A DNA stretch of 64,000 nucleotides, from contig NZ_CP084472.1 in the NCBI RefSeq assembly GCF_020405225.1, positions 620,001-684,000 of the forward strand, read 5' to 3'. Both the position numbers and the translations under genes were made by a program. This document shows, one piece after another, positions 2,518 through 59,571 of the stretch. Numbering within the stretch: position 1 is the first letter of the stretch; each line of letters starts with the position of its first letter. The stretch is from Natrinema sp. DC36 (lineage in GTDB: Archaea; Halobacteriota; Halobacteria; Halobacteriales; Natrialbaceae). The notes beneath the pieces were generated by a model. That model made no database searches, was not told the origin of the DNA, and worked only from the letters and a program-made list of their open reading frames with translations.

Positions 2518-4545
2518 ATGGATTTCGAAATTGAAGTAAGTGACGAGACGGAGCCCGATTATAGTGTCGCAGATAACTTCGCAGAGAATTTGGTCGATGC
2601 GATTCGGAGTGATATGGTCGGTAACGAGGGTCAGTTCCTTGCACTCAACGCAGCCTACGCGAGTGGACTTTCACGAAACCCAGATGAGTATCTTCAGATC
2701 ATCGTTCGAGGAAAGAGCGGTGAGGGGAAAACAGAACTGAAGCAGAACGTTGACAAGGGTTATCCGAACCATTGGCTTCTGCGGACTGGTTCTACGTCTG
2801 ACATGGGTCTTGTTGACTCGGGTGGTATGTGGGACGGGGTCTACATCGGTGCCTTTGCTGAATTTCAGCAGATGCAAGGGAAGATGTTGGAAATGGTCAA
2901 GTCGAGTGCGGGCGACGACGCTGACGAGCGTGGTGTTGGGTTTAGCCACACACGTAACGTTGACGAAGGTGAGGATGGACGTGGGGCGGACGAGATCGAA
3001 AAGCAGGCAATGCCCACCGTTTTCCTTTTCGCTGACGAGAATAACGCCGAAATCCCTCGGGAGTTGCGCACTCGCCAAATGACCGTGCGTGTCGAGGCAG
3101 ACAAGGACATCAATCGGGCCGTCGCCAAGATGATGTTCGATTACCAAAAGGTCGAGGCGGGCGAACGGGAGTTCGAATACAACTTCAACTTCGAAGAGGG
3201 GAAGAACGCAATTCAGAACCACATTGCGAGCATTCCTCGACCGCTCGACCCGCTATGGGAAGATGATCCAAAGACCTACTCCTACCCCGTTGCAATCCCG
3301 TATGACGAGGATATCGAGTGGCCTGTGAACGACCATCCAACGATCGACTCGTATGGGTGGGCTGCATTCAAGGTCCTCGACCCAATCCTCAATTACAATA
3401 AAACCGACAGCAAGCGTGGGGCGAAGGCGATTGCAAACCACATTCGGGCTCACGCTCGACTGAATTATCACAACCGTGAGTTGATGGAGATTAACGGTGT
3501 AGACCACATCGTTGCGGAGCCGCAAGACATCGGGAACGTCATTTCGTATCGAGATCTGCTCCTCAATCTCACTCACGGGATGGATGAAAAGAAGTTCGCT
3601 GTAATCGAGGCGCTCACTGACCCACATAACGGGGTTGGCGGAACGGGACCAAACGGTGGTGTCCAGGCCACGCTGAAGGATATCGCAAAGTACATCGATG
3701 AGCACGCCGACATCACGGCGATTTCTAAGTCCCAACTCCATAATGCGACCACCAACAATGGTGTTCTCAATCAAATGGAGGAGGACTATCTCATCGAGAT
3801 TCACAAGGGAGATGGGCCGAACGGGGCGCACATGTTCGAATTCCTTGGCGGGAGCACGTTCGGACACCCCAATATCGGACAGTACGCCGAACTGTTCGAG
3901 CACGTCACCGATCCGATTCGAGACCAGCCTATCTCGGATACGATATCGATGTTCAAGAAGGAACTGGCAACTGAGACGACTGAAGACCTTCTGGACAGTA
4001 ACAACTCGATGATCCAGAGCGACGATGGTGACGACGAGTCAGAGACCGATGAGAGCAATGAGGATGGTCTCTCAGCGTTCGGAGGTGGGGTATCCGCTGG
4101 CAGTCGCGCCAGCGACTCCACTGACCCGCAGGGACGCGGTCCCGATGGAGGCGATGGTGACGACGTGGAGTTTTCTGAAGCCGAGCACGCTGTCGCTGAC
4201 GCCCTTAGAGAGACACTGGATGATTGCAGAGTTGAACCGCAGTATCTCGATGAAGACGCTGACGGTGGTCTCGCCACGTCTCACATGCTTGGTGCGAGCC
4301 CCGTTGAGAAATATACCGACGATCGTGGTCTCCCTTACGTTCGTGCGGAGCGACCGTACCAGAGTGGTGATAAGGACGATAGCCCGCTCGACCCAGACAG
4401 TCCACTGTGGGGCGATATCTCGAGTGGGCAGGCACAGAGCAACGTCGAGAACGCGATCAAGAAACTACGATCTGAGGAGGTGTTCGAATCGCACGACGAG
4501 CCCGAGGGTGAAGGCATGTATCTCGTCGTCCACGACATCGAATAA
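2518..4545 (+). CDS. P-loop ATPase with C-terminal winged-helix-like part, probable replication protein
   Basis: 675 residues. Walker A GKSGEGKT at residues 65-72 and a Walker B-like FLFADEN at about 169-175, within a 200-residue ATPase domain. Around residues 395-440 a KSQLHNATTNNGVLNQ region looks like a winged helix, followed by a low-complexity Asp/Glu/Ser/Gly linker (about 500-560) and a C-terminal acidic domain. Large ATPases of this build in haloarchaeal viruses are usually annotated as helicase or primase-helicase; the window has no other helicase candidate, so a role in unwinding or loading at the fork is a reasonable inference. No primase motifs are visible. Flanked on both sides by homing endonuclease genes. 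Confidence 0.6.
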   Translation: MDFEIEVSDETEPDYSVADNFAENLVDAIRSDMVGNEGQFLALNAAYASGLSRNPDEYLQIIVRGKSGEGKTELKQNVDKGYPNHWLLRTGSTSDMGLVDSGGMWDGVYIGAFAEFQQMQGKMLEMVKSSAGDDADERGVGFSHTRNVDEGEDGRGADEIEKQAMPTVFLFADENNAEIPRELRTRQMTVRVEADKDINRAVAKMMFDYQKVEAGEREFEYNFNFEEGKNAIQNHIASIPRPLDPLWEDDPKTYSYPVAIPYDEDIEWPVNDHPTIDSYGWAAFKVLDPILNYNKTDSKRGAKAIANHIRAHARLNYHNRELMEINGVDHIVAEPQDIGNVISYRDLLLNLTHGMDEKKFAVIEALTDPHNGVGGTGPNGGVQATLKDIAKYIDEHADITAISKSQLHNATTNNGVLNQMEEDYLIEIHKGDGPNGAHMFEFLGGSTFGHPNIGQYAELFEHVTDPIRDQPISDTISMFKKELATETTEDLLDSNNSMIQSDDGDDESETDESNEDGLSAFGGGVSAGSRASDSTDPQGRGPDGGDGDDVEFSEAEHAVADALRETLDDCRVEPQYLDEDADGGLATSHMLGASPVEKYTDDRGLPYVRAERPYQSGDKDDSPLDPDSPLWGDISSGQAQSNVENAIKKLRSEEVFESHDEPEGEGMYLVVHDIE

Positions 4546-9446: not shown

Positions 9447-9456
9447 TAATTCACAA

Positions 9457-9468
9457 GACTTTTATTAC
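9457..9468 (+). promoter_or_regulatory. Promoter of the structured 9.5-kb locus
   Basis: AGACTTTTATTA is a TATA-type box; a GTG at 9492 lies about 30 bp downstream. Transcription would enter a segment with several strong stems. Confidence 0.45.
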
Positions 9469-9491
9469 CAGATGTCGTAGAGATTATTGCC

Positions 9492-9647
9492 GTGAAAGCG
9501 GCGTTCCAACGCATTGGACGAATCACTGTAACGGGAATGGCTTCACTGTTCTGGTCCCTGGAAAGGGATCAGGCTCCGTTACTTCGCGGGGTGGCTCTAC
9601 CTCTCAATACTGTGTGGTTACAGGAATGTGTACGTAGATGTGGTTAA
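9492..9647 (+). CDS. Possible 51-residue GTG-start ORF overlying structured RNA
   Basis: GTG 9492 is at leaderless spacing from the box at 9457 and opens 51 codons (VKAAFQRIGRITVTGM...). The product is basic and lacks the acidic character of the neighbours, and the same bases form stable stems (9505-9582), so the transcript may be a non-coding RNA rather than a message. Kept as a low-confidence CDS. Confidence 0.3.
   Translation: MKAAFQRIGRITVTGMASLFWSLERDQAPLLRGVALPLNTVWLQECVRRCG
9505..9582 (+). ncRNA. Structured RNA candidate
   Basis: Three helices: TCCAA/TTGGA (9505-9518); an outer stem GTAACGG (9528-9534) pairing with CCGTTAC (9576-9582); and inside it an 8-bp hairpin CTGGTCCC (9551-9558) / GGGATCAG (9565-9572, one G-U) with loop TGGAAA. 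This is a nested two-storey fold, unlikely by chance, just downstream of a promoter. Not a tRNA. Confidence 0.45.
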
Positions 9648-9662
9648 ACCCCACACCACTCC

Positions 9663-9700
9663 AGTTACCAAATTACGACCAGATAGAAACCTTTTAGTAT
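9663..9700 (+). promoter_or_regulatory. Promoter leading into tRNA-like region
   Basis: GTTACCA (9664-9670) and AGAAACCTTTTAGTA (about 9685-9699): degenerate dyad followed by a TATA-type box. An ATG at 9720 is at leaderless spacing, and the tRNA-like element begins at 9807, so this is probably the promoter of the RNA locus as well. Confidence 0.5.
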
Positions 9701-9719
9701 ACACAGTCCCTATGTATAG

Positions 9720-9821
9720 ATGGGCAAAGCACTGACCCAAACCCGCACCAGATTCGTGCCAGTCGCGGGGGCCTCGACACCATACGAGGTTAGCACGGAT
9801 CAATTTGGGGAGATAGTGTAG
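9720..9821 (+). CDS. 33-residue ORF before the tRNA-like element
   Basis: ATG 9720 at promoter spacing, 33 codons (MGKALTQTRTRFVPV...), TAG at 9819-9821. It overlaps the first 15 bases of the tRNA-like sequence and is basic, unlike neighbours. It could be a leader peptide or chance. Confidence 0.3.
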   Translation: MGKALTQTRTRFVPVAGASTPYEVSTDQFGEIV

Positions 9822-9925
9822 TGGCAGCACGGTGGTCCCGACTCGTCTGAAAAAGCGAGCGGTCAACGGATAAAATTCGTTGGAGAATCTAACCACAAAC
9901 GTGGGTTCGAATCCCACTCTTTCCA
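9807..9925 (+). tRNA. tRNA-like element with about 48-base insertion in the anticodon arm
   Basis: Parts of a cloverleaf are clear. Acceptor 5' arm GGGGAGA (9807-9813) pairs with TCTTTCC (9918-9924, two G-U pairs). U8-A9 is followed by a D arm GTGT-AGTGGCA-GCAC. The T arm GTGGG-TTCGAAT-CCCAC is canonical (9901-9917), and discriminator A is at 9925. GTGGT and ACCAC could form the anticodon stem, but 55 bases lie between them where 7 are expected, and no choice of intron gives a loop with U33. Within the insert, CGAGCGGTCAACGG resembles a class II (Ser/Leu) D arm. It is therefore intron-bearing, a fusion of two tRNA remnants, or decayed. Amino acid not assigned. Confidence 0.4.
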
Positions 9926-9928
9926 TTC

Positions 9929-9997
9929 GGGAGAACGAGCTTGCAAGCATAATAGAGAACTCAAAAAGGGTGTGGGTGCAACTCCCACCATCTCCCA
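9929..9997 (+). tRNA. Second tRNA-like remnant
   Basis: GGGAGA (9929-9934) pairs with TCTCCC (9991-9996). A T-arm-like GTGGG-TGCAACT-CCCAC (9972-9988) has G where the conserved U55 should be. The middle contains GCTTGCAAGC and GAGAACTC small stems but no proper anticodon arm. Probably a decayed tRNA gene following the first one. Confidence 0.35.
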
Positions 9998-10669
9998 CTC
10001 GCGCCTTTGGGCAGCGTGTACTAAGTATCGCTCACGCCACGAAAGTGGGGCAAGGTCGATGCGTAAATCCATGATTCTTTGTAATCCTCTGGTCGCCTCG
10101 AGCAGCCCCCACGGACGTGGTTGTTACCGCCGTGTAAGACAATGATCCCTCACTGAAGGGCTCTGAGACTTACATAGTCGGATTGTGTCAACACACACGG
10201 AACACATGCTAACTGTGAATGGAGAAGGCTGACATCCTACTGTTCATCTGAGCAAGAGTATGAGCCGTTTGACAGTTTCGGCTTGAAGCCCACATGACCA
10301 TGTCTGCTAACGCTGTAGGGAGGTAGTAGCTCACAACAGTATGGCGGATCAAATCATGGCCCTGGCGGATGCGACGATCCTGAAGGTGAAACTTCAGATA
10401 GTCCTCCGTATTAAGGGACGTGAGACAGAGAACGCCCTCGACTAACGGACGTGGGTGTGGGAACCAAACTGTACCAGAAGTGAGATAGGATCCAATCATA
10501 TATCGCGGGGTGATGATCGTGGCGTACTTTTCACGTGGTTGAAGCCTCTACACTATGCTGATTCCACTTTTTTAGAAAACATTATAATACTCGAGTAGCA
10601 ACACCCACGTGCTCCTTTCGAGGAGCGTACATGGCTTCGTAGTCCCGCGACAACGGGGATTCGGAGTGC
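9998..10669 (+). other. Gene-free tract with several RNA hairpins
   Basis: About 670 bases without a believable protein gene. The one long frame (minus, 10209-10499) is basic and His/Ser/Leu rich, unlike any real gene here. Visible structure: GTAAG (10134-10138) with CTTAC (10169-10173) enclosing CCCT/AGGG; AGCCG...CGGCT near 10273-10295; and CTGAAG/CTTCAG (10380-10397, loop 6). The tract lies between the tRNA-like elements and a strong terminator-like hairpin, so it may be one long non-coding transcript. Confidence 0.4.
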
Positions 10670-10690
10670 GGGAGTGCCATTCACACTCCC
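10670..10690 (+). terminator. Terminator-like hairpin
   Basis: GGGAGTG (10670-10676), loop CCATTCA, CACTCCC (10684-10690), then TTTGAATT. A G+C-rich 7-bp stem followed by T-rich sequence ends the RNA tract before the next promoter. Confidence 0.55.
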
Positions 10691-10726
10691 TTTGAATTAA
10701 ACCAACAAGCTTTCTCTATCCCCACG

Positions 10727-10753
10727 TACTTACCAGATGGTAACGTTTTTGTA
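10727..10753 (+). promoter_or_regulatory. Promoter with TACTTACC upstream
   Basis: TACTTACC (10727-10734), AGATGGTAAC completing a dyad, then GTTTTTGTA (10745-10753). The GTG start at 10776 is about 28 bp from the box. Confidence 0.6.
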
Positions 10754-10775
10754 GCCAGAGTACCTATCAATAGAC

Positions 10776-14373: not shown

Positions 14374-14498
14374 GTGGAAAATTTGAAGAATTAGAGACGT
14401 TCATTCAAGAGAACGAGTTGGCATTGGAAATATATGCCGAAAACGGGAATGAAAGATCGGATCTCGTTGCCACGCTCCTACGGTGTCATAGGAGTTAG
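14370..14498 (+). CDS. 42-residue ORF coupled to the HAD gene
   Basis: ATG 14370 overlaps the HAD stop. 42 residues (MSGKFEELETFIQEN...). Its stop overlaps by four bases the 3' end of the convergent recombinase gene. Short but supported by coupling. Confidence 0.5.
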   Translation: MSGKFEELETFIQENELALEIYAENGNERSDLVATLLRCHRS

Positions 14499-15724
14499 TT
14501 GCCCATCATCCTCTCTTGAATAAACTCCATTAGTTCGTCTTCGCTGAACTGGTCTAATTTTTCCTCAATATCGTCCTTATCCGCATCGATATCTACTTTT
14601 GACCCACAGTCTGGACAGAATTGTTCTGATCCTTCCAGTGGTTTCTGACACGCTGGACAGTTGTCTGGAACAAACGGACTATCGTCCTCTTCTTCGATTA
14701 GTCCTACAGCCTGCTCAGCATTTTTCATCATATCCTCGTCAGTGAGATGGGCGTATGTTGTCTCCATGACGGTGGAATCGGGGTCATGACCAATGATATG
14801 CTTAATCGTATCATTGTCCATTCCTTTATCTCTCTTCGCCCACGTAACAAACGTGTGTCTGAAGTTATGGGGGTTGGTAGGTTTGTCCACCCCCGCTCTC
14901 TCACCAATATTTTGAAGCAATCTGTATATGGATGAATGGTCCATCTTGTCCCCTAAGTCCTGACCATTGTTCTGATCGACATTCTTTTTACAAATAAAGT
15001 GAGCTTCTGGGTCGTCAGTACACGGGTGATTATTCTTCCACTTTCTTACAGAGTGCTCCGCCAAGAGCAATGATCTGGCCCCCTCAGCCCCCTTCATGTC
15101 ACCATCACTTGTATTGAGATAAAACACTCCATCTTCGGGTTTCATGTCCTTAAGTCGGAGGTTGAGAATGGCTGCTATTCGCTGTCCCGTATATCCCAAC
15201 AATTCGACTAACGCTTTGTCTCGAGGGTGTTGTGCGGCTTTCCGTATCGCATTGAATTCGTCTCGGGTGAGGATATCCCTCTCGTCAACGGAGCTATCAT
15301 TCGGTTCGAAGAGCATGATCTCTTCAGGATCGACGTTAAAATCATCATGGTATTTGTAGAACTTCCGTATTGTGGACTGGTGGTTCCGCACCGATCCAGA
15401 TGTGAGACCGCCCTCTTTCACACCATCGACATTCCCACGTCGTATATCATCCATGATCTTGTTTATTTTGTACTCCGATGCATCACTCAAATTAAAGTCA
15501 GATAGCTCAGGGATACGTTTTAGTGTATATGCGTACCTTGCTAATGTACCATCAGACATGGAATCACCATTGATTAACGCACTTTCTGGATCGGCAGAAT
15601 CGAGAAACTCGAGTATGGCTTCACAGTCCTCTGAGGACATGACACCGTCTTGTTCTAACGACTGGATTCTATCTCTGTATTTCTCGTATCTCTCTCGGTT
15701 TGACTTTGCCATGTTGAGTGACAT
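14495..15724 (-). CDS. Tyrosine recombinase (integrase) with C-terminal zinc ribbon
   Basis: 409 residues (start could be the second Met, 15712). Catalytic residues of the family are all visible: Arg182 (GYTGQRIAAIL), His286 and Arg289 (PHNFRHTF), His313 (IIGHDP), Tyr324 (TTYAHLT). A SAM-like N-terminal core-binding domain precedes. After the catalytic domain is a four-cysteine ribbon (CPACQKP ... FCPDCGS, residues about 356-373) and an acidic helix. It catalyses site-specific strand exchange: integration, or resolution of concatemers or multimers. It is the only - strand gene in the first 24 kb, suggesting separate control. The attachment site is not known; see the tRNA-like element at 9807. 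Confidence 0.9.
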   Translation of the reverse strand: MSLNMAKSNRERYEKYRDRIQSLEQDGVMSSEDCEAILEFLDSADPESALINGDSMSDGTLARYAYTLKRIPELSDFNLSDASEYKINKIMDDIRRGNVDGVKEGGLTSGSVRNHQSTIRKFYKYHDDFNVDPEEIMLFEPNDSSVDERDILTRDEFNAIRKAAQHPRDKALVELLGYTGQRIAAILNLRLKDMKPEDGVFYLNTSDGDMKGAEGARSLLLAEHSVRKWKNNHPCTDDPEAHFICKKNVDQNNGQDLGDKMDHSSIYRLLQNIGERAGVDKPTNPHNFRHTFVTWAKRDKGMDNDTIKHIIGHDPDSTVMETTYAHLTDEDMMKNAEQAVGLIEEEDDSPFVPDNCPACQKPLEGSEQFCPDCGSKVDIDADKDDIEEKLDQFSEDELMEFIQERMMGN

Positions 15725-15805
15725 TGCGGGGGAAGAATAAATGTATTTGGATCATGCTTACTGCCAGTATCTGTGAAATAGATACAATTATTCTTGAAAG
15801 TAAGT

Positions 15806-15928: not shown

Positions 15929-18745
15929 ATGTCTGGATTAGGTGATTTTGTCGAGGAGAATACTGAAGAACTCCACTTGATGAATATCGAGCACGAGGAT
16001 GAGTTTGGTAAGCCAATTATCCACACGCTGACTCGAGACAAAGAAGGTGAACAGAGACACGTTGAAATTGTCGGTCATAAACCCTCTTTTTATATCCCTG
16101 AAGACGCCTACTCGAAACGAGTAGCAAACAACGATTGGGTAGACTACGCCGAAGAAGGCCACCAATCGATTAAAGGCCAGTCACTCGTCAAAGTATACTG
16201 CAACCTCCCAGGCCAGATCAATGGGAAAAACGACAAGAAGGGGCTTCGAGAATACTTTGATAAAACGTGGGAAGCAGACGTATTTTACGTCAATCGTTTT
16301 CTTATCGATACTGGGATCAAAACCCACTTCGAAGTCGATCTCGATGAGACGTGGGAACCACAATCGTGTCAAGGAGACTACCGAGTCAACGTCGATGATG
16401 TCACACCCGTCGAGGAACCAACGTGGAAAGCCGACCCACGTACGGTCACGATAGACATCGAGGTGGAGTCGCCAGACGGTTTTCCAGACCCATCTGATGC
16501 AGATCATCCAGTCACCGCAATCACCGCTCACGACAGTCACACGGACGCCTATACGGTGTGGGTCCTACGACATCCCGATTGGGACTACAGCGACGTTGAA
16601 GTAGAAAACCTCGTTATCGATCATCGGCCAGAAACTATCTCCGTCGAAATCGATGAGGACGACGATGGAGAGCCGATTTACGAAGATCTCACAGTCCCGA
16701 TTGAGGATGTCAAAGTCTTCAGTGACGAGGGCGACATGCGTCATAACTTCAACAAGTACGTTGAAGCACGACGCCCAGACCTATTGAGCGGATGGAATTC
16801 GAGTTGTACGGACAAAGGCAAGCCGTTCGACTTTCCGTACCTCATCAACCGTTGTCAGTCCAAGAACGATCTGTCCTACCGAGATTGGTCTCCGTTTGGG
16901 GAGGTGTGGGACAGCCATTGGGGTCCTCGAGCCAAGGGTGTAGAGTTTCATGACCAGATGAAAGCGTATAAGAAAACACGCTGGTCGAAACCCAAGGGCG
17001 GATACGGGCTCAAGAACATCTCCTCCGAAGAATTGCCGATAGGTAAGTTGGAAATGGAGGATATTGACGACGCCTGGAAGCGGGATCCAGCCGCGTTCAT
17101 CGAATACAACATTCGTGACGTTCAGGCCGTCCTCGGAATCGACGTAGCAGCGGGCGTCACCGATCTGTTCCAGAACCTCCGAAAGCTTACTGGGGCGCAG
17201 TGGGGTGACTGTCACAACAATATCGACCTTCTCGATCACTACATCCTTCGCTTTGCACACGAGCGTAACGTCGCTCTCCCCACGAACGAGAAACCAGAAC
17301 GTGGGTGGTTCTACGGCGGCTACGTCTTCGAACCAGAGTTAGGGCGACACCCGAACGCCGTTTACCCCGACGTGTGGTCGGAATATCCGAACGCTTTCCG
17401 TACGTGCAACCTCTCCCCAGAGACGATTATTGGCACCGCAGAGGATCTCGAGGCGTCTGAGTACACCGAAGAAGACTGTCGGTGGTCGTATATCGACACC
17501 CGTCCAGACAACGTGAAGAACCCACCAGATATGGACGGGGCTGCGGAACCAGAGTACGAGAAATGTTACTACCTCAAGCCTGAAATTAAGGAGGGGTTCA
17601 TGAACAAGGTCGTGGACCACGTTATGGGTCTGAAGGACGACTACGATGGAACCGACCTCTACGGTCCTGTCAAACAGGTCGTCAACTCCGTGTGGGGCGT
17701 CTACGGCGACAGCGATTCCTACGGGAAAGGATACCGCCTGTTCGATTGGCGTGTCGCTGAGTCGATTACGCTCTACGGTCGAAAGGTCATTCAACACTCC
17801 GCAGAGAAGTACGTCAACTCGCTCAACGAACTGAAGGACAAGTACGACTACGACGGTCGGAACGCCTATCAGGTCGGTGGAGACACGGACAGTGTCATGA
17901 CAAGCATTCCGTTCATGAACGCTTCCAATCGGGATGAGCAGCAACAGATCGTTGATCTCGCTATCGAGGCGTGTGACATGGTCAACGATAGTTACGATGA
18001 GTTTGCCGCTGAAGAATTCAACAGTGATGGGACGTATATCGAACTGGAGATTGAGTCTTACTCTCCTTGGTTGTTCGTTCCAGAAGGCGTCACGAAGGAA
18101 AAAGCGAAGAAGCGATATGCAGAGATCACCGCCTGGGACGAAGGTGAGTGGCTCGACCCACCAGAATTGAGCTTCACTGGAATCGACGTGGTTCGGTCTG
18201 ATCGGGCTGTCGTTACTCGGGAGATGGTCAGTGATGTTATCGAGACCATCCTCCGTATCGATGATGGTGAAGAGGCCCGTCGTGAAGCGTATGACGCGAT
18301 ACAAAACACAGTCGAGCAGATCAAAGACGGTGAGAAACCGCTGTCGTATATCGCCCGTCCGAAGGGGATGGGGCAGGACCCAAGCGAGTACGGTAGCGCC
18401 TCTAAACGCCCCTCGAGCACCTACAGAGGTGCTAAGTACGCCAACGAGAATTTCGATTGGGAGCAGATGGGTGAGGGTTCGAAGCCACAGTTCCTTGCGA
18501 TAGACAAGGTCCGTGGCGATTGGCCGAAGACCTACAGCGCCGAGACCGCAGAAGACGGCGATGTCGTTGATGCGCTGTCCGTAGAGCATCCTGAGAGGGT
18601 GCCAGACGAGTTCATCGTTGACTACGATACGATGATCGAGAAGACGCTTCGAGATCCTTTGCGGCCGATCATGGGACCGCTGAATTGGTCATTTGACGAA
18701 GCGTTGAGTGACAGCGAACAGTCGGACATCACATCGTTCATGTAG
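15929..18745 (+). CDS. polB: Family B DNA polymerase with 3'-5' exonuclease
   Basis: 938 residues. Proofreading motifs: Exo I DIE (Asp176), Exo II N-x(n)-FDFPYL (Asp301), Exo III YNIRD (Tyr393/Asp397). Polymerase motifs: motif A YPDVWSEYPN (Asp481; the usual SLYPS is changed to SEYPN), motif B KQVVNSVWGVYG (Lys582), motif C GGDTDS (Asp652, Asp654), and the thumb KKRYAEI. All catalytic Asp residues are present, so it should be active. No intein. Start ATG 15929 is preferred over the TTG at 15914 because the promoter octamer occupies that stretch. It copies the viral genome; the P-loop ATPase at 2518 is the likely partner. Confidence 0.95.
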   Translation: MSGLGDFVEENTEELHLMNIEHEDEFGKPIIHTLTRDKEGEQRHVEIVGHKPSFYIPEDAYSKRVANNDWVDYAEEGHQSIKGQSLVKVYCNLPGQINGKNDKKGLREYFDKTWEADVFYVNRFLIDTGIKTHFEVDLDETWEPQSCQGDYRVNVDDVTPVEEPTWKADPRTVTIDIEVESPDGFPDPSDADHPVTAITAHDSHTDAYTVWVLRHPDWDYSDVEVENLVIDHRPETISVEIDEDDDGEPIYEDLTVPIEDVKVFSDEGDMRHNFNKYVEARRPDLLSGWNSSCTDKGKPFDFPYLINRCQSKNDLSYRDWSPFGEVWDSHWGPRAKGVEFHDQMKAYKKTRWSKPKGGYGLKNISSEELPIGKLEMEDIDDAWKRDPAAFIEYNIRDVQAVLGIDVAAGVTDLFQNLRKLTGAQWGDCHNNIDLLDHYILRFAHERNVALPTNEKPERGWFYGGYVFEPELGRHPNAVYPDVWSEYPNAFRTCNLSPETIIGTAEDLEASEYTEEDCRWSYIDTRPDNVKNPPDMDGAAEPEYEKCYYLKPEIKEGFMNKVVDHVMGLKDDYDGTDLYGPVKQVVNSVWGVYGDSDSYGKGYRLFDWRVAESITLYGRKVIQHSAEKYVNSLNELKDKYDYDGRNAYQVGGDTDSVMTSIPFMNASNRDEQQQIVDLAIEACDMVNDSYDEFAAEEFNSDGTYIELEIESYSPWLFVPEGVTKEKAKKRYAEITAWDEGEWLDPPELSFTGIDVVRSDRAVVTREMVSDVIETILRIDDGEEARREAYDAIQNTVEQIKDGEKPLSYIARPKGMGQDPSEYGSASKRPSSTYRGAKYANENFDWEQMGEGSKPQFLAIDKVRGDWPKTYSAETAEDGDVVDALSVEHPERVPDEFIVDYDTMIEKTLRDPLRPIMGPLNWSFDEALSDSEQSDITSFM

Positions 18746-29613: not shown

Positions 29614-30795
29614 CTAAACAATATCTCCTGCAAGTGTTCCATTATCATCACCGCTATCGCCCCCTAATCCTAATTCTGGGTCGTTTGGCTCATCATCTCC
29701 CTTGAGAATGAACGTTCCTTGCTCAGATGCGTTAACATCGTGTCCAGCAGGAACGCCACGAGAGAGGAAGTCTTGAACCTCTTGGCGGGTGAGGGCCGCG
29801 TTGTCATAGACATTCGACTGGGCAGAAAATTCAACTGTGGCTGGATTGATATCGAAACTAAAACCGATGCTTATCTCGTCTACTGTCGTTTCAAGGACCG
29901 ACGCAGCAAACTCCACAAACTCATTAAACGTCGTTCCGATATTCCCAACACGGAACTGGACTTTGAGACGGGCTCTATACTTTGCATCTGCTTCTCCACT
30001 ACGCCGATCGAGGTTAACGAGTTGGCCGATTTTGTCAAGCTCCTCACCAACAGCAGTATCGATGTGTTTGGCACGTTTGATGTCGTAAAGAGCCTGATCC
30101 TGCCTATCTCGGATGGAAAGGAGGGCTCGCATCAACTTGTAGGAGTTAGACCCCTCACCAAACGTGAGACCACCATTATCCCACTCGCTTGATGCCTCGC
30201 TTATATTCCTCGTAGTGAGTGTGTTTAATTTAACATTATCAACGTACTGTGCGGATGCATTGTCAGATCCAGTACGACCGCCAAACCCGAATCTCGAATG
30301 TTCGGTGTCTGGCGATTCAATTGTCGTTTCGAATGCGTTTTGTGAATTGACCAACACACTCACATTCCCGTAATCGTAGGAAATACGGATGTGGTGTTTC
30401 TCCTCATTGCTGTTCCCGCTAATCTCAAACCCTCCCGATCGGGTTATATTGTCCTCCCCATCAACTCGATGAACGAGGCGAACTTCATTGTCGGCATGGT
30501 CAAACGAGACGTAGTATCCGTTATCTGGCTGCCATAACTCTCCTACACCATCATGGAAGAAGAGTATCGCCACTTCTCGTTCAGATCCAGAGTCATCATT
30601 TTCTATGTCGAGTCTGAAATCACACCTCCATACATTTTCAGTGAGATGGTTTCTGAGAGTGATATTGCCTTCAGACTCAACACTCTCTGGAGTGATGCGG
30701 GCTCGCCCATTCCGTATGGCTGCATCGCCGCCAATAGTCCAGTTATCAGAACTATCGAAATTGGAATCGATTATTTCGTCTATATACTCACTCAT
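29614..30795 (-). CDS. Baseplate protein I-like with N-terminal LamG/ConA-type domain
   Basis: 393 residues. Residues 1-200 form a jelly-roll-like domain (NGYYVSFDHADNEVRLVHR, HHIRISYDYGNVSVLVN), as in LamG/concanavalin-like lectins. Residues about 215-350 have LDKIGQLVNLDRRSGEADAKYRARL (in part), the signature of the gpI/DUF2612 baseplate family that links J to fibres. The fusion would put a carbohydrate-binding module on the baseplate. Follows J by 2 bp. Confidence 0.75.
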   Translation of the reverse strand: MSEYIDEIIDSNFDSSDNWTIGGDAAIRNGRARITPESVESEGNITLRNHLTENVWRCDFRLDIENDDSGSEREVAILFFHDGVGELWQPDNGYYVSFDHADNEVRLVHRVDGEDNITRSGGFEISGNSNEEKHHIRISYDYGNVSVLVNSQNAFETTIESPDTEHSRFGFGGRTGSDNASAQYVDNVKLNTLTTRNISEASSEWDNGGLTFGEGSNSYKLMRALLSIRDRQDQALYDIKRAKHIDTAVGEELDKIGQLVNLDRRSGEADAKYRARLKVQFRVGNIGTTFNEFVEFAASVLETTVDEISIGFSFDINPATVEFSAQSNVYDNAALTRQEVQDFLSRGVPAGHDVNASEQGTFILKGDDEPNDPELGLGGDSGDDNGTLAGDIV

Positions 30796-30797
30796 TA

Positions 30798-32633
30798 TTA
30801 GATTTCTGTGACGTTAATTTGAATACTACCGTCAGTAGCATCAGTCTGAGCTACCTCATTTTCACCAACGCTAACCACCTCAAGACCGTAGCTATTGGTG
30901 GTCGTACTTGGCGTAAACGTGATGTCGTTCGCAGATGCATCGTTATTGAATCCGATAACACCCGTCTCATCTTCCCCGAGAATGATATCTTCTATCTCAT
31001 TAGCGTGAACATCTTCACCCGATTCAAGTCCAACAACGTCGGTGTCGTCAGAGCTAACACCGCCAACATAGCTAACAATCTCGTCTCTGAGAGTCTCACT
31101 TCCAACATACGTATCATTGACGACAATATCCATCTCCATATCGATATTGACAGAACTGGGGCGGGAGTAGGAGATGTCGAACTGTTGTCCATTAGATTCA
31201 GATGTAACGGTTATAATCTGTTCCGTACCGTGAGCACCACCGTGGTCTCGGGAAGTAATTGCCTTTTTATCAAAGATTGCTCCAGCCACCTCACGATCGT
31301 CACCACCGAACACTACTGCTTCGAATGAATACGGTGGTAACCCATCTACATCTGTTGAATTGGTTTTATTTTCGTATAGAGTGACGGAACGAACGCCACT
31401 AACTTCATTCAACAGTTCGGATGTGAGGGCAGCGACAGTTGCGTCACCACCGCTGGAAACACTGTCCCTGGCACGTTCTCGTAGACTATCATCGTCCTCC
31501 TCCCCACGCCCGACGACGAACGGATCTCCGTTGATGTCGTTGTAGCTCTGATCGGATGTTGGGTAGAGGTTAGACGTACCATCGACGCCAGCGGGTGGGG
31601 AAGGAAGGACGTTAATCGATTCGGCACCAACATTCCCGTGAGAACCCCCGTTAATTGCACGGATGTTCACACTTACAGCACTCATGCTGATTTCATCGAT
31701 GTATTTGTTCCCACTACTATCGAGACTTTTGAATCCGACATATCCGTTTCGCCAAATGGTATTACTCGAGTCAACACCACCAGCGGTATACTTATTTCCA
31801 CTCTGGTCAGTTATTTCAACACCGATATTTCCAGTAATAGACCAATCAACGACAAGATGGACGTGTTCTCCAGTTGGAACAGTCTCATTCTGTGTGTCAA
31901 TAGTATTAACTACAACACCATCCTCCACTCTCTCAATTCGCACTTCTCCTAAATTGGTATCGATAGCAACCTGATAGTGGTTGTCAATGCTTTGAACACC
32001 GAATGTGAAGGTCGGAACAGTATTGCTTTCTGCATAGATATCGGATTCGATAGTGGATCCAATATCGACAAGCTCATCCGATTTGTAGATGTGGTCTCCA
32101 TTCGTTGCATTTGCCTCGAGAGAGATTGAACCCTCGCTCGCGTTCATTGCAACAGTATCGAACGTACCGCTTCCAACGTCACCTCCCCAGTCGGATAGCG
32201 CATCGCTTTCAAACCCGTCTATATATCGGAGATACGTGGTCTCACTGGTCTCAAACTGCGCAGACGAGTTTCCTTGAGTTTGGATAACCGTTCCACGCTG
32301 GATGTTATACGACGTTGTGACTGGATCATCACTTCGGAACTGCTGGACACCAGTTGCGTGGATAGCAGATCGGCGTTGGATGCCGACAATTGCGACTACG
32401 CGATCAAGATCCTCTCCAGTTGCGGTATCGAGAAAACCACTCTCGTATACTTCACCAAGACTCTGTTCTTGGTTGCCGTTACTAACAGCCGCCATAACCT
32501 CAGCGAATGTTGAGAAAACTGACGACTCTGTTAGGTCGATGTTATTCCCAAATTCACTTTGCAATTCGCTCTCGAGTGCGTTAACAATCTCGTTCTCCGT
32601 TAGTTCAACATATTCTCCGTCTTCAACAGGCAT
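30798..32633 (-). CDS. Baseplate J-like protein with inserted lectin-like domain
   Basis: 611 residues. The N terminus (SVFSTFAEVMAAVSNGNQ, LDTATGEDLDRVVAIVGI) and the C-terminal two thirds (GGDATVAALTSELLNEVSGVRSV) match the J/gp6/gp47 baseplate wedge family. Between them, residues about 135-315 form a beta-sandwich (FTFGVQSIDNHYQVAIDTN, HVHLVVDWSITGNIGVEI) resembling LamG/ConA domains. Normal J proteins are 300-400 residues, so the insert accounts for the extra length. It builds the baseplate ring that triggers sheath contraction. Confidence 0.85.
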   Translation of the reverse strand: MPVEDGEYVELTENEIVNALESELQSEFGNNIDLTESSVFSTFAEVMAAVSNGNQEQSLGEVYESGFLDTATGEDLDRVVAIVGIQRRSAIHATGVQQFRSDDPVTTSYNIQRGTVIQTQGNSSAQFETSETTYLRYIDGFESDALSDWGGDVGSGTFDTVAMNASEGSISLEANATNGDHIYKSDELVDIGSTIESDIYAESNTVPTFTFGVQSIDNHYQVAIDTNLGEVRIERVEDGVVVNTIDTQNETVPTGEHVHLVVDWSITGNIGVEITDQSGNKYTAGGVDSSNTIWRNGYVGFKSLDSSGNKYIDEISMSAVSVNIRAINGGSHGNVGAESINVLPSPPAGVDGTSNLYPTSDQSYNDINGDPFVVGRGEEDDDSLRERARDSVSSGGDATVAALTSELLNEVSGVRSVTLYENKTNSTDVDGLPPYSFEAVVFGGDDREVAGAIFDKKAITSRDHGGAHGTEQIITVTSESNGQQFDISYSRPSSVNIDMEMDIVVNDTYVGSETLRDEIVSYVGGVSSDDTDVVGLESGEDVHANEIEDIILGEDETGVIGFNNDASANDITFTPSTTTNSYGLEVVSVGENEVAQTDATDGSIQINVTEI

Positions 32634-48668: not shown

Positions 48669-49592
48669 CTATTCTAATTCGATTTCTGCGGCTTCACCGT
48701 CGTCCTCCATCTCTTGAGTGAACTGTTCAGCAGAAATTGGCTCAGGCGTCTCAGATTCGTCGTCAGTCGATTCTTCACCTGGCTTGACCGATAGGGTATA
48801 GTCGTTCTTCTGGAACGTCAGAACGCCGCCACCGTCGTCAGAATCGATCTCAACACCTCCGTTCTTGAGGTGTTCTTTGATGTCCTTCGTGACTCGGGAA
48901 ATTGGGAGGTGAAGATGATGTTCAGTTTTCTCCGTTTTCGTGTCAGTAATCTTCCCCTCCATATCAGCCGACTGCGAAATCGTATCGACGGCGACACCGT
49001 CTTTGAACACGACCTCCTTCATGTTCTGCTGCATAACCTCGGTGAGAGCTGCATACCACAATTCTGTGGCCTGAAATTTGTATAAGGCGCTCTGCGGCAT
49101 CGGCAATTCAACATTGACCGAATTTTCTTGAATAAGATCAGAACCAGACGTATCGAGGTTACGTTCGACACGCTCCACCTCGAGATCGAACTGAGAAAGT
49201 TCGGTCAGACCGTCAAACATCTCGACGGCGAAAAGGAACTTTTCAGGCGATAGGTGCTTTGCAAAATTGATAAAGTTCGTTGCAAAGTATCCATGTTCGA
49301 AAAGTTCGTCGGCACGTTCCATTAGATCATCCATTTGTTTGTGTGTTTTGCAGTAATCTGAACCGTCTTCTACAAACGTAGATTCGGGCATTTGCGTACA
49401 GAAGCGGACTTCGCCGTAGCGTCGTTCGTAATCACGAACTGGTGCGCCACAGCGACCATCTGTCGGTTCCGTACTTCCCGTCTCTAACGAGAACTCCTTT
49501 TCATCGTCAGTCCGACCCCACGGTTCATCTCCACGCCAAAACGTTTCCCAGGACTCTGGGTAATCGTCGTGTGGAGGTTCTGGAGGTTCCAT
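48669..49592 (-). CDS. Putative terminase small subunit with zinc-finger-like part
   Basis: 307 residues from ATG 49592 (MEPPEPPHDDYPESWETF...). A GTG start at 49667 would add 25 residues that lack acidic character. Cys/His cluster RCGAPVRDYERRYG ... FCTQMPES ... YCKTH may bind zinc. The middle is helical (ALYKFQATELWYAALTEVMQQN quoted in part) and the C terminus acidic. It directly precedes the large subunit (stop and start adjoining), the position of small terminase, which recognises DNA to be packaged; no direct motif proves this. Confidence 0.6.
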   Translation of the reverse strand: MEPPEPPHDDYPESWETFWRGDEPWGRTDDEKEFSLETGSTEPTDGRCGAPVRDYERRYGEVRFCTQMPESTFVEDGSDYCKTHKQMDDLMERADELFEHGYFATNFINFAKHLSPEKFLFAVEMFDGLTELSQFDLEVERVERNLDTSGSDLIQENSVNVELPMPQSALYKFQATELWYAALTEVMQQNMKEVVFKDGVAVDTISQSADMEGKITDTKTEKTEHHLHLPISRVTKDIKEHLKNGGVEIDSDDGGGVLTFQKNDYTLSVKPGEESTDDESETPEPISAEQFTQEMEDDGEAAEIELE

Positions 49593-53267: not shown

Positions 53268-53361
53268 TGCATCTGATCGGTTTCATGCTCGTTCATGAAT
53301 GAGCGTAACCCCTCCTAATCATATTTCTGGAACTTTTAAGCGGTAGGAAGGGCGCGGAAAT
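53268..53361. other. Short gene-free stretch
   Basis: Contains CTAATCATATTTCTGGAAC (53317-53335), a relative of the repeats at 56483 and 56528, followed by TTTTAAG, a possible TATA box. Confidence 0.35.
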
Positions 53362-53559
53362 TTGGGTGCAACTCGTCTCACAAAAATAATAATTTTTACA
53401 GTCATGGTGGCGGTTTCCATATATCTGCTATCGTTTTACAACACAGAGGGGGAATTAATGGACCCCAGTGGAACGAGCGTGCGACACCCCACCGAAGCTA
53501 ATCTTGATGGGGGCCTTTCACTCGAGTTAGTGCCTGAATTAACTCGAGTTAGTCATTGA
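53362..53559 (+). CDS. Possible membrane protein, TTG start
   Basis: 65 residues beginning with TTG (MGATRLTKIIIFTVMVAVSI...). One membrane span at residues about 8-25, then an acidic tail. No ATG at a suitable place; overlaps the 3' end of the convergent gene by 11 bases. Weakly supported. Confidence 0.35.
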   Translation: MGATRLTKIIIFTVMVAVSIYLLSFYNTEGELMDPSGTSVRHPTEANLDGGLSLELVPELTRVSH

Positions 53560-54151
53560 ATGCATGTCTCATCATGGTACGCAGATAACACGGAGCGAAC
53601 AGTGCCTTTTGTGTGAAACGGGGATACCCGAAACCATCGTAGTAGGATGCGGCCGCTCGTTGACCGACTATCTCAGTGAACAATAGCGGGCGAACGAAAC
53701 GGGGATAGCGCCCCTTGATGTGTTCAAATTTCTTATACTCTCCCTCGAGCGAAAAGTCGGTATCACACTCGAGATGCCCAAACCAATCATGCACTGCTCG
53801 AGCCTTCACGTTATCTTCCCATGACATGTGTTCTGGAGTGGAACCACCACTGAACACCCGAAGCTCATTATCTCGAGCGACTGACTCTTTCATATCAGCG
53901 AAACTATCATAGGGATCCTCATCGGTCCATATGACTGGAACAGGAATGCGGTCGTACCAAACCGAATTCACTCGAGCGATCGTATCGTACGCACCTTGCA
54001 CGAATGACTCGACATGATTCGGGTTGGTTGTGGCGTACCATCGTCCCAACACATCGCATAGGTCGGATTCAGTCAGATGTGTGTCCTCTCGAGCGATATC
54101 GTTGTTTCCTTCGAGATTCGTCGGTTTTACCGTCGTGTGTGCTTTGTACAT
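53549..54151 (-). CDS. Conserved-looking phage protein of unknown function
   Basis: 200 residues. Distinct motif block in the C-terminal half: NVKARAVHDWFGHLECDTDFSLEGEY (in part), FTEIVGQRAAASYYDGFGYPRFT. The H-D-x-x-G-H and E-x-x-x-Q arrangement suggests a metal-binding helical protein, and I believe similar proteins occur in other actinobacterial and haloarchaeal phages, but I cannot name a function. Last gene of the - strand early block. Confidence 0.65.
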   Translation of the reverse strand: MYKAHTTVKPTNLEGNNDIAREDTHLTESDLCDVLGRWYATTNPNHVESFVQGAYDTIARVNSVWYDRIPVPVIWTDEDPYDSFADMKESVARDNELRVFSGGSTPEHMSWEDNVKARAVHDWFGHLECDTDFSLEGEYKKFEHIKGRYPRFVRPLLFTEIVGQRAAASYYDGFGYPRFTQKALFAPCYLRTMMRHAFND

Positions 54152-55337: not shown

Positions 55338-55457
55338 TTATAGCTCAATCCAAATCTCCGTACCACCACAATAGGGACAGTATTCGACATCATTCTTGTG
55401 GTTATCAGGGACTTTAAATTCACGCTTACAACCGCTGTGGCAAGCAACAGTTTTCAT
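55338..55457 (-). CDS. 39-residue zinc-finger peptide
   Basis: MKTVACHSGCKREFKVPDNH... then YCPYCGGTEIW: C-x3-C/H and C-x2-C pairs. ATG overlaps the stop of the 215-residue gene upstream. Confidence 0.55.
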   Translation of the reverse strand: MKTVACHSGCKREFKVPDNHKNDVEYCPYCGGTEIWIEL

Positions 55458-56101
55458 TGTTCTTTTCCCTCCGCACAATCGTAATATCCTTCACGGAATG
55501 CGGTGGAAACATCTTCGTTATAGATGTCATGCACGACATCAATCGGTAACTCTTGATAGGTACCATACCCACTATCTTCGTATCCAGCGATCGAACGGAG
55601 CTTAGGGGCAAGAATGTTAGCCCAACGAGCGGAGTCCGTTGGAACCTCGGGTTTTGAATCGGCGAATTCGCCACCTTCACCGTATTCACCTTCAATGGGA
55701 CTTGCCTCCGCATATCCCATTTCATAGGCCTTTTCTTTCGCTTTCTCAGCGATTTGTTCAATGGTTAGACACTCGTTATACTCGCCCAATTCTTCAGACA
55801 TTCGTAGCCTGAAGAAAAGCTTCGGATCTTGTGACTTGTAGACAAGAATGTGAGTGTCGAGCGGTTTTTCACAATCGGCGCAAAGGGTGCCAGGATAGTC
55901 ACTTTCCGCATCACCGAACATTACGCTGTTATCTTCGTTGTGCCATTCTTCGTCGCTCACACAGCCCGCGCATACGATATGTGCATCATCAACGAACATA
56001 CCAGCAACACCATAGGGTGCGTGTCCGTTCGGTGTTTGACTCTTACTCACAGCGGTCTCACGGTCGAGAGTATCGTTATCCGTTACGATTATATCGCTCA
56101 T
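55454..56101 (-). CDS. Zinc-binding protein of unknown function
   Basis: 215 residues from ATG 56101 (a TTG two codons earlier is less likely). CAGC ... CADCEKPLDTH form a zinc-binding pair around residues 45-80; a helical middle (IEQIAEKAKEKAYEMGYAEA) and acidic C terminus (STAFREGYYDCAEGKEQ) follow. The promoter upstream has ACCACTTAC in reverse order and a TATA-type box at about 56125. Confidence 0.6.
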   Translation of the reverse strand: MSDIIVTDNDTLDRETAVSKSQTPNGHAPYGVAGMFVDDAHIVCAGCVSDEEWHNEDNSVMFGDAESDYPGTLCADCEKPLDTHILVYKSQDPKLFFRLRMSEELGEYNECLTIEQIAEKAKEKAYEMGYAEASPIEGEYGEGGEFADSKPEVPTDSARWANILAPKLRSIAGYEDSGYGTYQELPIDVVHDIYNEDVSTAFREGYYDCAEGKEQ

Positions 56102-56107
56102 ATCCAA

Positions 56108-56425
56108 TTACCACTTACATACCGACCCACATAAACCCACCGATATCGACGCACCACACACGTGTAACAGGATATGGAAAATACGATCATTGGATATTAC
56201 TCTCACGAATGGATTGAGTGACAAATATTACCGACATGGTCTCTTTTATGTCGATCGCTCCATTACTTGAGTGTATGAAATCACACCGCCGCATAACCCA
56301 CAGTTATGCTCGCCGATATTACTCAGATGTATTTCTCACACCATCAGTATTACTCAGGATAATATTACCACCAGTTATGTGGACCGAAGGGAACGAGGGG
56401 ATAATATCAGATTAGTGAAATAGAC
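56108..56425. other. Left part of a gene-free region
   Basis: Promoter of the 56101 gene at its left end; the remainder is A+T rich with repeated GATATTACTC and ATTACTCAGG-like words (GGATATTACTC at 56191, CGATATTACTCAG at 56316, GTATTACTCAGG at 56346). No ORF with haloarchaeal character. Confidence 0.4.
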
Positions 56426-56590
56426 CCTAATTGAAAATCTGCGATTTTCGGCGAGGATTGTGATCTGCTTTGCAGATCGCGTCCTAATAATATTTCTGGC
56501 GATTTTTTCAGCAACCTCGAAATAGGCCCTAATAATATTTCTGGCGATTTTTGGGGAAAGTTAAAAACGGTTCTAATTATAATTCTGGCT
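56426..56590. repeat. Iteron-like repeats and inverted repeats, candidate replication origin
   Basis: A 25-base repeat beginning CCTAATAATATTTCTGG occurs at 56483-56507 and 56528-56552 without change. Degenerate copies start at 56426 (CCTAATTGAAAATCTG) and 56572 (TCTAATTATAATTCTGG), spaced about 45-57 bases. Two perfect palindromes sit among them: GAAAATC-TGC-GATTTTC (56433-56449) and GATCTGC-TTT-GCAGATC (56462-56478). A+T-rich direct repeats with stems in the longest gene-free stretch of the early region are the usual look of an origin. Confidence 0.5.
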
Positions 56591-56715
56591 CGAGCGCAAC
56601 TCACCCACAGATCTCTCCTCACGTGGCTGTGGCACCCACCACACTGTTTTTAGAAAAGACACGTGGTTTCCACCAAACCAATTGAAAAACCGCTCAGAAA
56701 ACGACTATGCTCCTC

Positions 56716-59219: not shown

Positions 59220-59255
59220 CAACCATGTACTTACCACATAATAAGTGTGCCGATT
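59220..59255 (-). promoter_or_regulatory. Early promoter, duplicated block copy 2
   Basis: Second copy of the 58758 block, one base different (GCCGATT for ACCGATT at the far end). GGTAAGTA on the - strand at 59235-59228. Confidence 0.65.
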
Positions 59256-59571
59256 ACTGGATGACGTTGTTCTCCCAGTAGCTTTGATGTAGGTCGGCGA
59301 GGTGACTGAGTAGCGTTTCGGTATCTTCGTCCATGATCGAAGCGGTGTGTTCATCACCGCCCCACCATCCATCGACTCGACCCGCGTATAACGCAACCTC
59401 GATATGCGGACCGCCCGTAGTGAGTACGGCGATAATTTCACTGATATCACCGTCGATAGACGCTTCCACTTTTATCTCAAACGGATCAAGCTCTTCACTT
59501 GGGTCGTCCATCGCTTCAATGCGTTTTGCTGTCGCAACCACTTCATCAACGATCAGATCTTCACTTCCCAT
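59254..59571 (-). CDS. Protein of unknown function
   Basis: 105 residues (MGSEDLIVDEVVATAKRIEA...). Strands in the middle (DPFEIKVEASIDGDISEIIAV in part) and a helical end. Its promoter has GGTAGCCA instead of GGTAAGTA, like that of 58086. Confidence 0.6.
   Translation of the reverse strand: MGSEDLIVDEVVATAKRIEAMDDPSEELDPFEIKVEASIDGDISEIIAVLTTGGPHIEVALYAGRVDGWWGGDEHTASIMDEDTETLLSHLADLHQSYWENNVIQ

Follow-up and report, generated by a model that had tools for sequence, protein, structure and literature searches.

Where do tailed archaeal viruses that encode a family-B DNA polymerase (PolB) start to copy their DNA? Few replication origins and initiators of these viruses are known, and a group of iteron-like repeats with palindromes in the genome of Natrinema sp. 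DC36 had been put forward as a candidate origin on the basis of the letters alone (hereafter the sequence-only reading). We analysed the whole stretch that carries these repeats, 64,000 nucleotides at positions 620001–684000 of the 4.11-Mb chromosome (the window; coordinates refer to it unless stated otherwise), together with viral and host genomes. As judged from these comparisons, window positions 56194–56590 are a conserved, virus-specific cis-acting locus.

The carrier of the locus is an integrated, temperate, PolB-encoding tailed haloarchaeal virus. The provirus unit comprises 71,811 bp with 49% G+C versus about 66% in the host, and it is present twice, head to tail and with zero differences, from chromosome position 563948 to 707578. 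This dimer, which the sequence-only reading did not mention, may reflect either a true double lysogen or the way in which an excised circular form was assembled. The structural genes are co-linear with those of HATV-2 (MZ334525, Soleiviridae; identity of TerL, portal and sheath = 47%, 42% and 48%), and the provirus PolB is 37% and 36% identical to those of HATV-2 and HGTV-1, respectively. With PolB and the co-linear structural genes in common with HATV-2, the carrier is Soleiviridae-like in the sense of kinship by shared genes, not of formal family placement. The provirus (563948 and 707570 of the chromosome) interrupts the 5′ end of the host leuS gene (leucine–tRNA ligase, TIGR00396 5.9e-241), and its left end gives leuS an in-frame TTG start by which a 911-residue open frame (LYLFHRYWQYVWERDD...) is kept. 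Separately, the 10-mer GTGGTAAGTA occurs 24 times in the unit with at most 1 mismatch versus 2–3 expected, 21 of them outside genes or at gene borders and mostly directly downstream of TATA boxes on both strands (positions include 15914, 54236, 57280, 58766, 59228, 62012, 62092 and 63164). These many sites look like operators of one repressor, in a stoperator-like manner; the exact 10-mer was found neither in HATV-2 nor in the examined parts of three uncultured relatives (G421, G422 and G424, see below).

Comparison of the copies gave the provirus repeat as a directional site, CCTAAT-N4-5-TTCTGG-C-N2-TTTT, which forms direct repeats of about 17–25 bp in one orientation in non-coding DNA, with three copies and one variant all on the + strand (Table 1). 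The identical 25-mers that the sequence-only reading had placed at 56483 and 56528 were found there (0 expected in 100 dinucleotide shuffles of the window, with up to 3 mismatches allowed), and the core CTAATNATATTTCTGGC gave 4 matches versus 0.09 expected; the shuffles of the 25-mers and the core count ruled out chance repeats. Further copies reported at 56572 and 53317 were recovered as this core at 56573 and 53315, the degenerate copy at 56426 proved to be the variant CCTAATTGAAAATCTGCGATTTTC, and the spacing, given as roughly 45–57 bases, was measured as 57, 45 and 44 bp between copies. Both of the reported palindromes with 7-bp arms and a 3-base loop are present, but the first of them, GAAAATC-TGC-GATTTTC, belongs to the variant repeat, whose 3′ part it forms. 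Two extra copies that had escaped the sequence-only reading lie just past the end of the window, where a rightward gene follows them (equivalent positions 65282 and 65309); the variant CCTAATTGAAAATCTGCGATTTTC is repeated at the former position, and it also occurs as CTAATACAAAATCTGCGATTTTG in the uncultured relative G425. Exact core matches in the provirus unit number six, five of which are intergenic. The sixth (CTAATCCTAATTCTGG, 29664–29679, + strand) lies within a tail gene that runs leftward; it is probably a chance match, though it shares its strand with all other copies.

Table 1. Positions of the repeat copies, the neighbouring array and the relevant genes in the window.
Feature	Position	Strand	Remarks
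675-aa P-loop (GKSGEGKT) protein	2518..4545	+	conserved in related viruses
Tyrosine integrase	14495..15724	-	Pfam Phage_integrase 2.7e-20
att core TACTGCCAG, 9 bp	15759..15767		junction of the two tandem provirus copies, adjoins the tyrosine integrase
Family-B DNA polymerase gene	15929..18745	+	phrog_262 8e-117, Pfam DNA_pol_B; its strand is that of every motif copy
Solitary copy CCTAATCATATTTCTGGAACTTTTA	53314..53338	+	3.2 kb left of the cluster
A+T-rich array: five [AG]TATTAC words (56194, 56225, 56316, 56347, 56362) and two ATWAC...CAGTTAT words (ATAACCCACAGTTAT, ATTACCACCAGTTAT)	56194..56379	+	
Variant copy CCTAATTGAAAATCTGCGATTTTC	56426..56449	+	3′ part is a 7-3-7 palindrome, 56433-56449
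Palindrome GATCTGC-TTT-GCAGATC	56462..56478		between motif copies; G424 likewise has one between its two copies (CAGAAAAAGTATAACTTTTCTG)
Motif copy 1, identical 25-mer	56483..56507	+	
Motif copy 2, identical 25-mer	56528..56552	+	
Motif copy 3, core only CTAATTATAATTCTGG	56573..56588	+	without T-run

The gene-free stretch around the cluster, described earlier as the largest of the early region (608 bases), was measured as 614 bp (56102–56715) between two leftward called genes; no gap of the leftward early cluster is larger, although the rightward cluster has one of 1,329 bp that contains a tRNA (9447–10775). The tRNA gene in that gap (9807–9925) has an apparent intron, matched Rfam at 51 bits and was missed by ARAGORN. 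Where the sequence-only reading had noticed repeated ATTACTC words, five [AG]TATTAC words were counted (Table 1). They form the sole cluster of at least 3 such words per 200 bp in the entire unit of 71.8 kb, and HATV-2 and the part of G421 that was examined (20 kb) likewise have one sole cluster each. As for base composition, the neighbourhood is A+T rich as had been stated, but it is not the extreme of the unit (z = 2.6 for the best 100-bp window, sixth rank for the best 400-bp window). In HATV-2, no other 100- or 200-bp stretch of the genome is as unstable as the locus; the low-stability signal is moderate in the provirus and absent in G421. GC-skew analysis, which the sequence-only reading had suggested as a check, was not diagnostic: neither GC skew nor third-position skew gave an origin signal or shift at the locus after gene direction was considered.

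By scanning the strict pattern CCTAATNANANTTCTGGCGATTT against 2.9 million viral contigs, matches were obtained only in HATV-2 and in two uncultured viruses, G421 (IMGVR_UViG_3300007852_000001) and G422 (3300021446_000131), whose PolB homologues are 62% and 40% identical to that of the provirus in the longest matched segment. Two more, G424 (3300019927_000044; PolB 59%) and G425 (3300017828_000001; PolB 61%), were added through a looser pattern and homology searches. The repeat, which had been suggested to be sought in relatives, is accordingly found in five related viruses, HATV-2 and four uncultured ones, all with homologous PolB. On the minus strand of HATV-2, CCTAATCATATTTCTGGCGATTTT is located at 59259 and 32311 and CCTAATAATAATTCTGGCGATTT near 338, within the intergenic gaps 59250–59524, 32270–32498 and 163–529; 4 of the 4 copies inspected, including one at 49441 with one extra base, are intergenic in the published annotation, where 9% of the genome is intergenic. 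Up to 24/24 consensus bases are present there, one 24-base stretch being identical to the consensus, despite the PolB identity of 37%. The exact core CTAATNNNNNTTCTGG, for which we estimate a chance expectation of about 0.03 per genome, was counted 6, 5, 4, 3, 5 and 3 times in the provirus, G421, G422, HATV-2, G424 and G425, respectively; all of these copies (26/26, six viruses) are on the PolB strand, and their consensus is tCCTAATnnnAtTTCTGGCnntttt.

Outside these viruses, the motif was not found in HGTV-1 despite its related PolB, and the contigs G426 and G427 (46 and 34 kb), also with related PolB, gave no exact match; these contigs may be without the motif region altogether. Besides this provirus, none of 125 same-family and 391 same-class genomes had the motif, which ruled out a host-derived element; since it is absent from host relatives, its reader is probably virus-encoded. 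There was no convincing match in the PLSDB plasmids. Searches of viral contigs by the neighbouring protein and by PolB alone returned zero relatives, and a first 17-mer scan of viral contigs was discarded, as the number of matches was about the chance level. A paired pattern matched mostly contigs with repeats at multiples of three, G422 and G424 being the only relevant matches, and a 23-mer pattern also matched coding sequence of low-GC contigs, so that single matches of the latter prove nothing alone.

The motif occurs in two settings. In five genomes, 1–4 copies form a single cluster that occupies a gap flanked by leftward early genes (three full copies and one variant in the provirus, two each in G421, G422 and G424, one full and one half copy in HATV-2). 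TATTAC words, several of which continue to CAGTTAT, are located 49–64 bp upstream of the cluster in the provirus, G421, G424 and HATV-2; this array was not found at the cluster of G422. The spacing of copies in relatives is 20, 28, 56 and 60 bp, and over the whole range (20–60 bp, the provirus included) the spacings are not integral numbers of helical turns, showing no regular helical phasing. At a distance of 2.8–4.3 kb, and always to the same side of the cluster, the provirus, G421, G422, G424 and HATV-2 have a solitary copy, and in G422, as in the provirus, homologues of the genes 53549–54151 and 55454–56101 sit between the two. Solitary copies also precede TATA boxes by about 20–65 bp, with a start codon in the same orientation behind the TATA box (G421: 8143, 8750, 13807 and 18102; HATV-2: 32318 and 49441; provirus: 65310). 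The genes behind such TATA boxes are of replication type, and the copy at 18102 in G421 is about 80 bp upstream of a homologue of the 675-aa P-loop protein of the window. In clusters with readable neighbours the motif points against the neighbouring genes, indicating that its orientation follows the genome, not the gene. A further repeat of G421 reads ATAACTGnnAGTAATA on its leftward strand (875, 1412, 1864, 2687, 6054, 6442 and 7492) and in several cases directly precedes TATA boxes of leftward genes, which suggests a separate regulator for leftward transcription.

The sequence-only reading saw no initiator gene adjoining the repeats, and our scan agreed, as known initiator families numbered zero among 78 non-structural proteins (Pfam, NCBIfam and PHROGs; all Pfam matches, and for the other two the matches listed). 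No Orc/Cdc6 family was present in Pfam among the 78 proteins, no Rep_trans, Rep-Arvir or HUH protein appeared among all Pfam matches or the NCBIfam and PHROGs matches listed, and ParA, ParB and primase families were absent from the non-structural proteins scanned. We infer the 675-aa P-loop protein to be a candidate replicative helicase or initiator; its AlphaFold2 model has a pLDDT of 39.6.

Base-level conservation, virus specificity, uniform polarity and single clustering together point to a site read by a virus-encoded DNA-acting protein. The earlier claim of an origin-type organisation stands as regards a conserved virus-specific locus with direct repeats beside an A+T-rich array, one per genome, but solitary promoter copies and the lack of a known initiator family weaken a plain origin reading. 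For the cluster, an origin of replication is most likely the best fit, given the direct repeats beside the A+T-rich array and the low stability in HATV-2. We judge positions 56194–56590 to be a conserved locus at which a protein encoded by the virus binds. Because no known initiator was found, the A+T signal is moderate or, in G421, absent, skew is uninformative and copies are placed at promoters, we only lean towards this locus being, as the most likely reading, the replication origin, and for the same reasons it is quite possible that the motif is a transcription-control site only, an activator or operator site of a virus-encoded regulator. In this main rival, single copies would control the rightward replication-gene promoters, and the cluster with the TATTAC/CAGTTAT sites, the latter serving leftward promoters, would be a switch upstream of the leftward gene 55454–56101. 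This fits the copies in G421, HATV-2 and the provirus (65310) that precede the TATA boxes of genes in the same orientation by about 20–65 bp, as well as the CAGTTAT-type words directly upstream of leftward-gene TATA boxes in G421. However, the cluster motif points away from its supposed target gene and lies 330–490 bp upstream of it, no consistent co-oriented promoter follows the cluster, distances to the TATA box vary from about 20 to 65 bp, and the conserved orientation is relative to the genome and not to the gene (26/26). Since the site also occurs alone upstream of TATA boxes, the protein that binds it may act as a transcription factor, either solely or in addition.

Uniform strand polarity would also suit a directional signal that terminase, or some other machine moving along DNA, reads for packaging or for concatemer processing. 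We consider such a signal improbable; part of the weight that we grant it comes from a HATV-2 copy 47 bp away from the 291-bp terminal repeat. In its favour are also the solitary copy that, in each of the provirus, HATV-2 and G422, lies upstream of the genes on the terminase side and the single copy near the end of a 4.67-kb integrated Halorarius element, but copies are spread over replication-gene promoters and clustered 3–4 kb from the terminase side, whereas a virus with terminal repeats needs a single defined cut region. Clustered and dispersed copies of one polarity fit parS-like or priming sites too. A site for partition (centromere-like), for host takeover or for some other task at the DNA level, strand-specific priming among them, is nevertheless very doubtful: the scan of non-structural proteins gave no member of a ParA, ParB or primase family, and the provirus is integrated in the chromosome. 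Least credible are transcription terminators with U-tracts: several copies do end in T4–T8 between genes, but about half are without a T-run, conservation concerns the part that precedes it, and copies in leftward regions carry it on the strand opposite to the one that the local genes would require. The terminator alternative, which the sequence-only reading had named, is disfavoured because the motif is long and specific, keeps the same strand whatever the direction of the neighbouring gene and in several copies lacks the T-run.

Iteron-type origins of plasmids and phages (R6K, pSC101, lambda) carry sites for their initiator both at the origin and at promoters, and DnaA and iteron initiators combine origin binding with regulatory sites at promoters. 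The viral locus resembles them in its direct repeats beside an A+T-rich segment and the extra copies at promoters, but differs in having no recognisable initiator and uneven spacing, and its genome-wide strand polarity is outside that model. By analogy, it may work like an iteron origin, as far as direct repeats and location go; regular spacing and a known initiator were not found. Haloarchaeal Orc/Cdc6-ORB origins have inverted ORB repeats beside an A+T-rich region and an adjoining orc/cdc6 gene (PMC3528665). The viral repeats are likewise beside an A+T-rich region, and G- or C-runs often adjoin the motif, but all copies are direct and Orc/Cdc6 was not detected. Rolling-circle origins of archaeal viruses need a Rep gene, for example the Rep-Arvir of SNJ2 (PMC13107129); short palindromes near the putative origin are common to both, whereas no Rep_trans, Rep-Arvir or HUH protein was detected here and the virus encodes its own PolB. 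In the temperate haloarchaeal myoviruses phiH1/phiCh1, the L-region replicon, an early/lysogeny region, has been proposed as origin (PMC6210493); RepH adjoins the phiH1 replicon, but was not detected among the provirus proteins scanned. The nearest comparison is HATV-2, which shares with the provirus the motif, the order of the array words, the polarity to PolB and the type of early-gene gap, but has no integrase among its annotated genes and a cluster of only one full and one half copy. The searched passages of PMC8651126 do not present the HATV-2 locus as an origin.

Of the places where these viruses might begin to copy their DNA, the repeat region is so far the strongest candidate, and its working can be pictured as follows. 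A virus-encoded sequence-specific protein would bind CTAAT-N5-TTCTGG, the two blocks of which are about one helical turn apart and often followed by C-N2-TTTT. Bound at the cluster beside the TATTAC/CAGTTAT array, the complex might open the DNA, and the opened locus would load the viral replication machinery (the P-loop protein and PolB), thereby serving as a viral replication origin. Solitary copies at TATA boxes of rightward genes would be regulatory sites of the same protein, presumably in an autoregulatory manner, and could couple expression of replication genes to the level of the binding protein, as in iteron or DnaA-box systems.

One match lies in a different kind of element. A scan of genome contigs totalling 257 billion bases gave two exact matches of the pattern CCTAATNNNNNTTCTGGCGATTTT, about the number that we estimate for chance, and one of them is in a 4.67-kb integrated element of Halorarius halobius ZY10 (NZ_CP101161; contig region L175:1585-6333). 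This element has 79-bp direct repeats, 49% G+C versus 71% outside, an integrase and an IscB-like HNH protein that is 45% identical over 73 residues to the HNH protein near the solitary copy of the window; its motif copy is about 200 bp from the right end. The Halorarius copy could be due to chance, or the element could be a virus satellite that uses the site in trans. A bolder extension, which we regard as unlikely, is that a lineage of archaeal tailed viruses would use a new polar site, read by a so far unrecognised initiator, both as its origin and as the master control of its replication genes, with small integrative satellites carrying one copy for replication or packaging by the helper virus.

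For PolB-encoding tailed viruses of archaea, a site of about 24 bp that is kept at 37% PolB identity, always on the polymerase strand and with one cluster per genome, offers a precise target for studies of the origin and of the binding protein, and HATV-2, as a cultured virus, makes the site amenable to such study.
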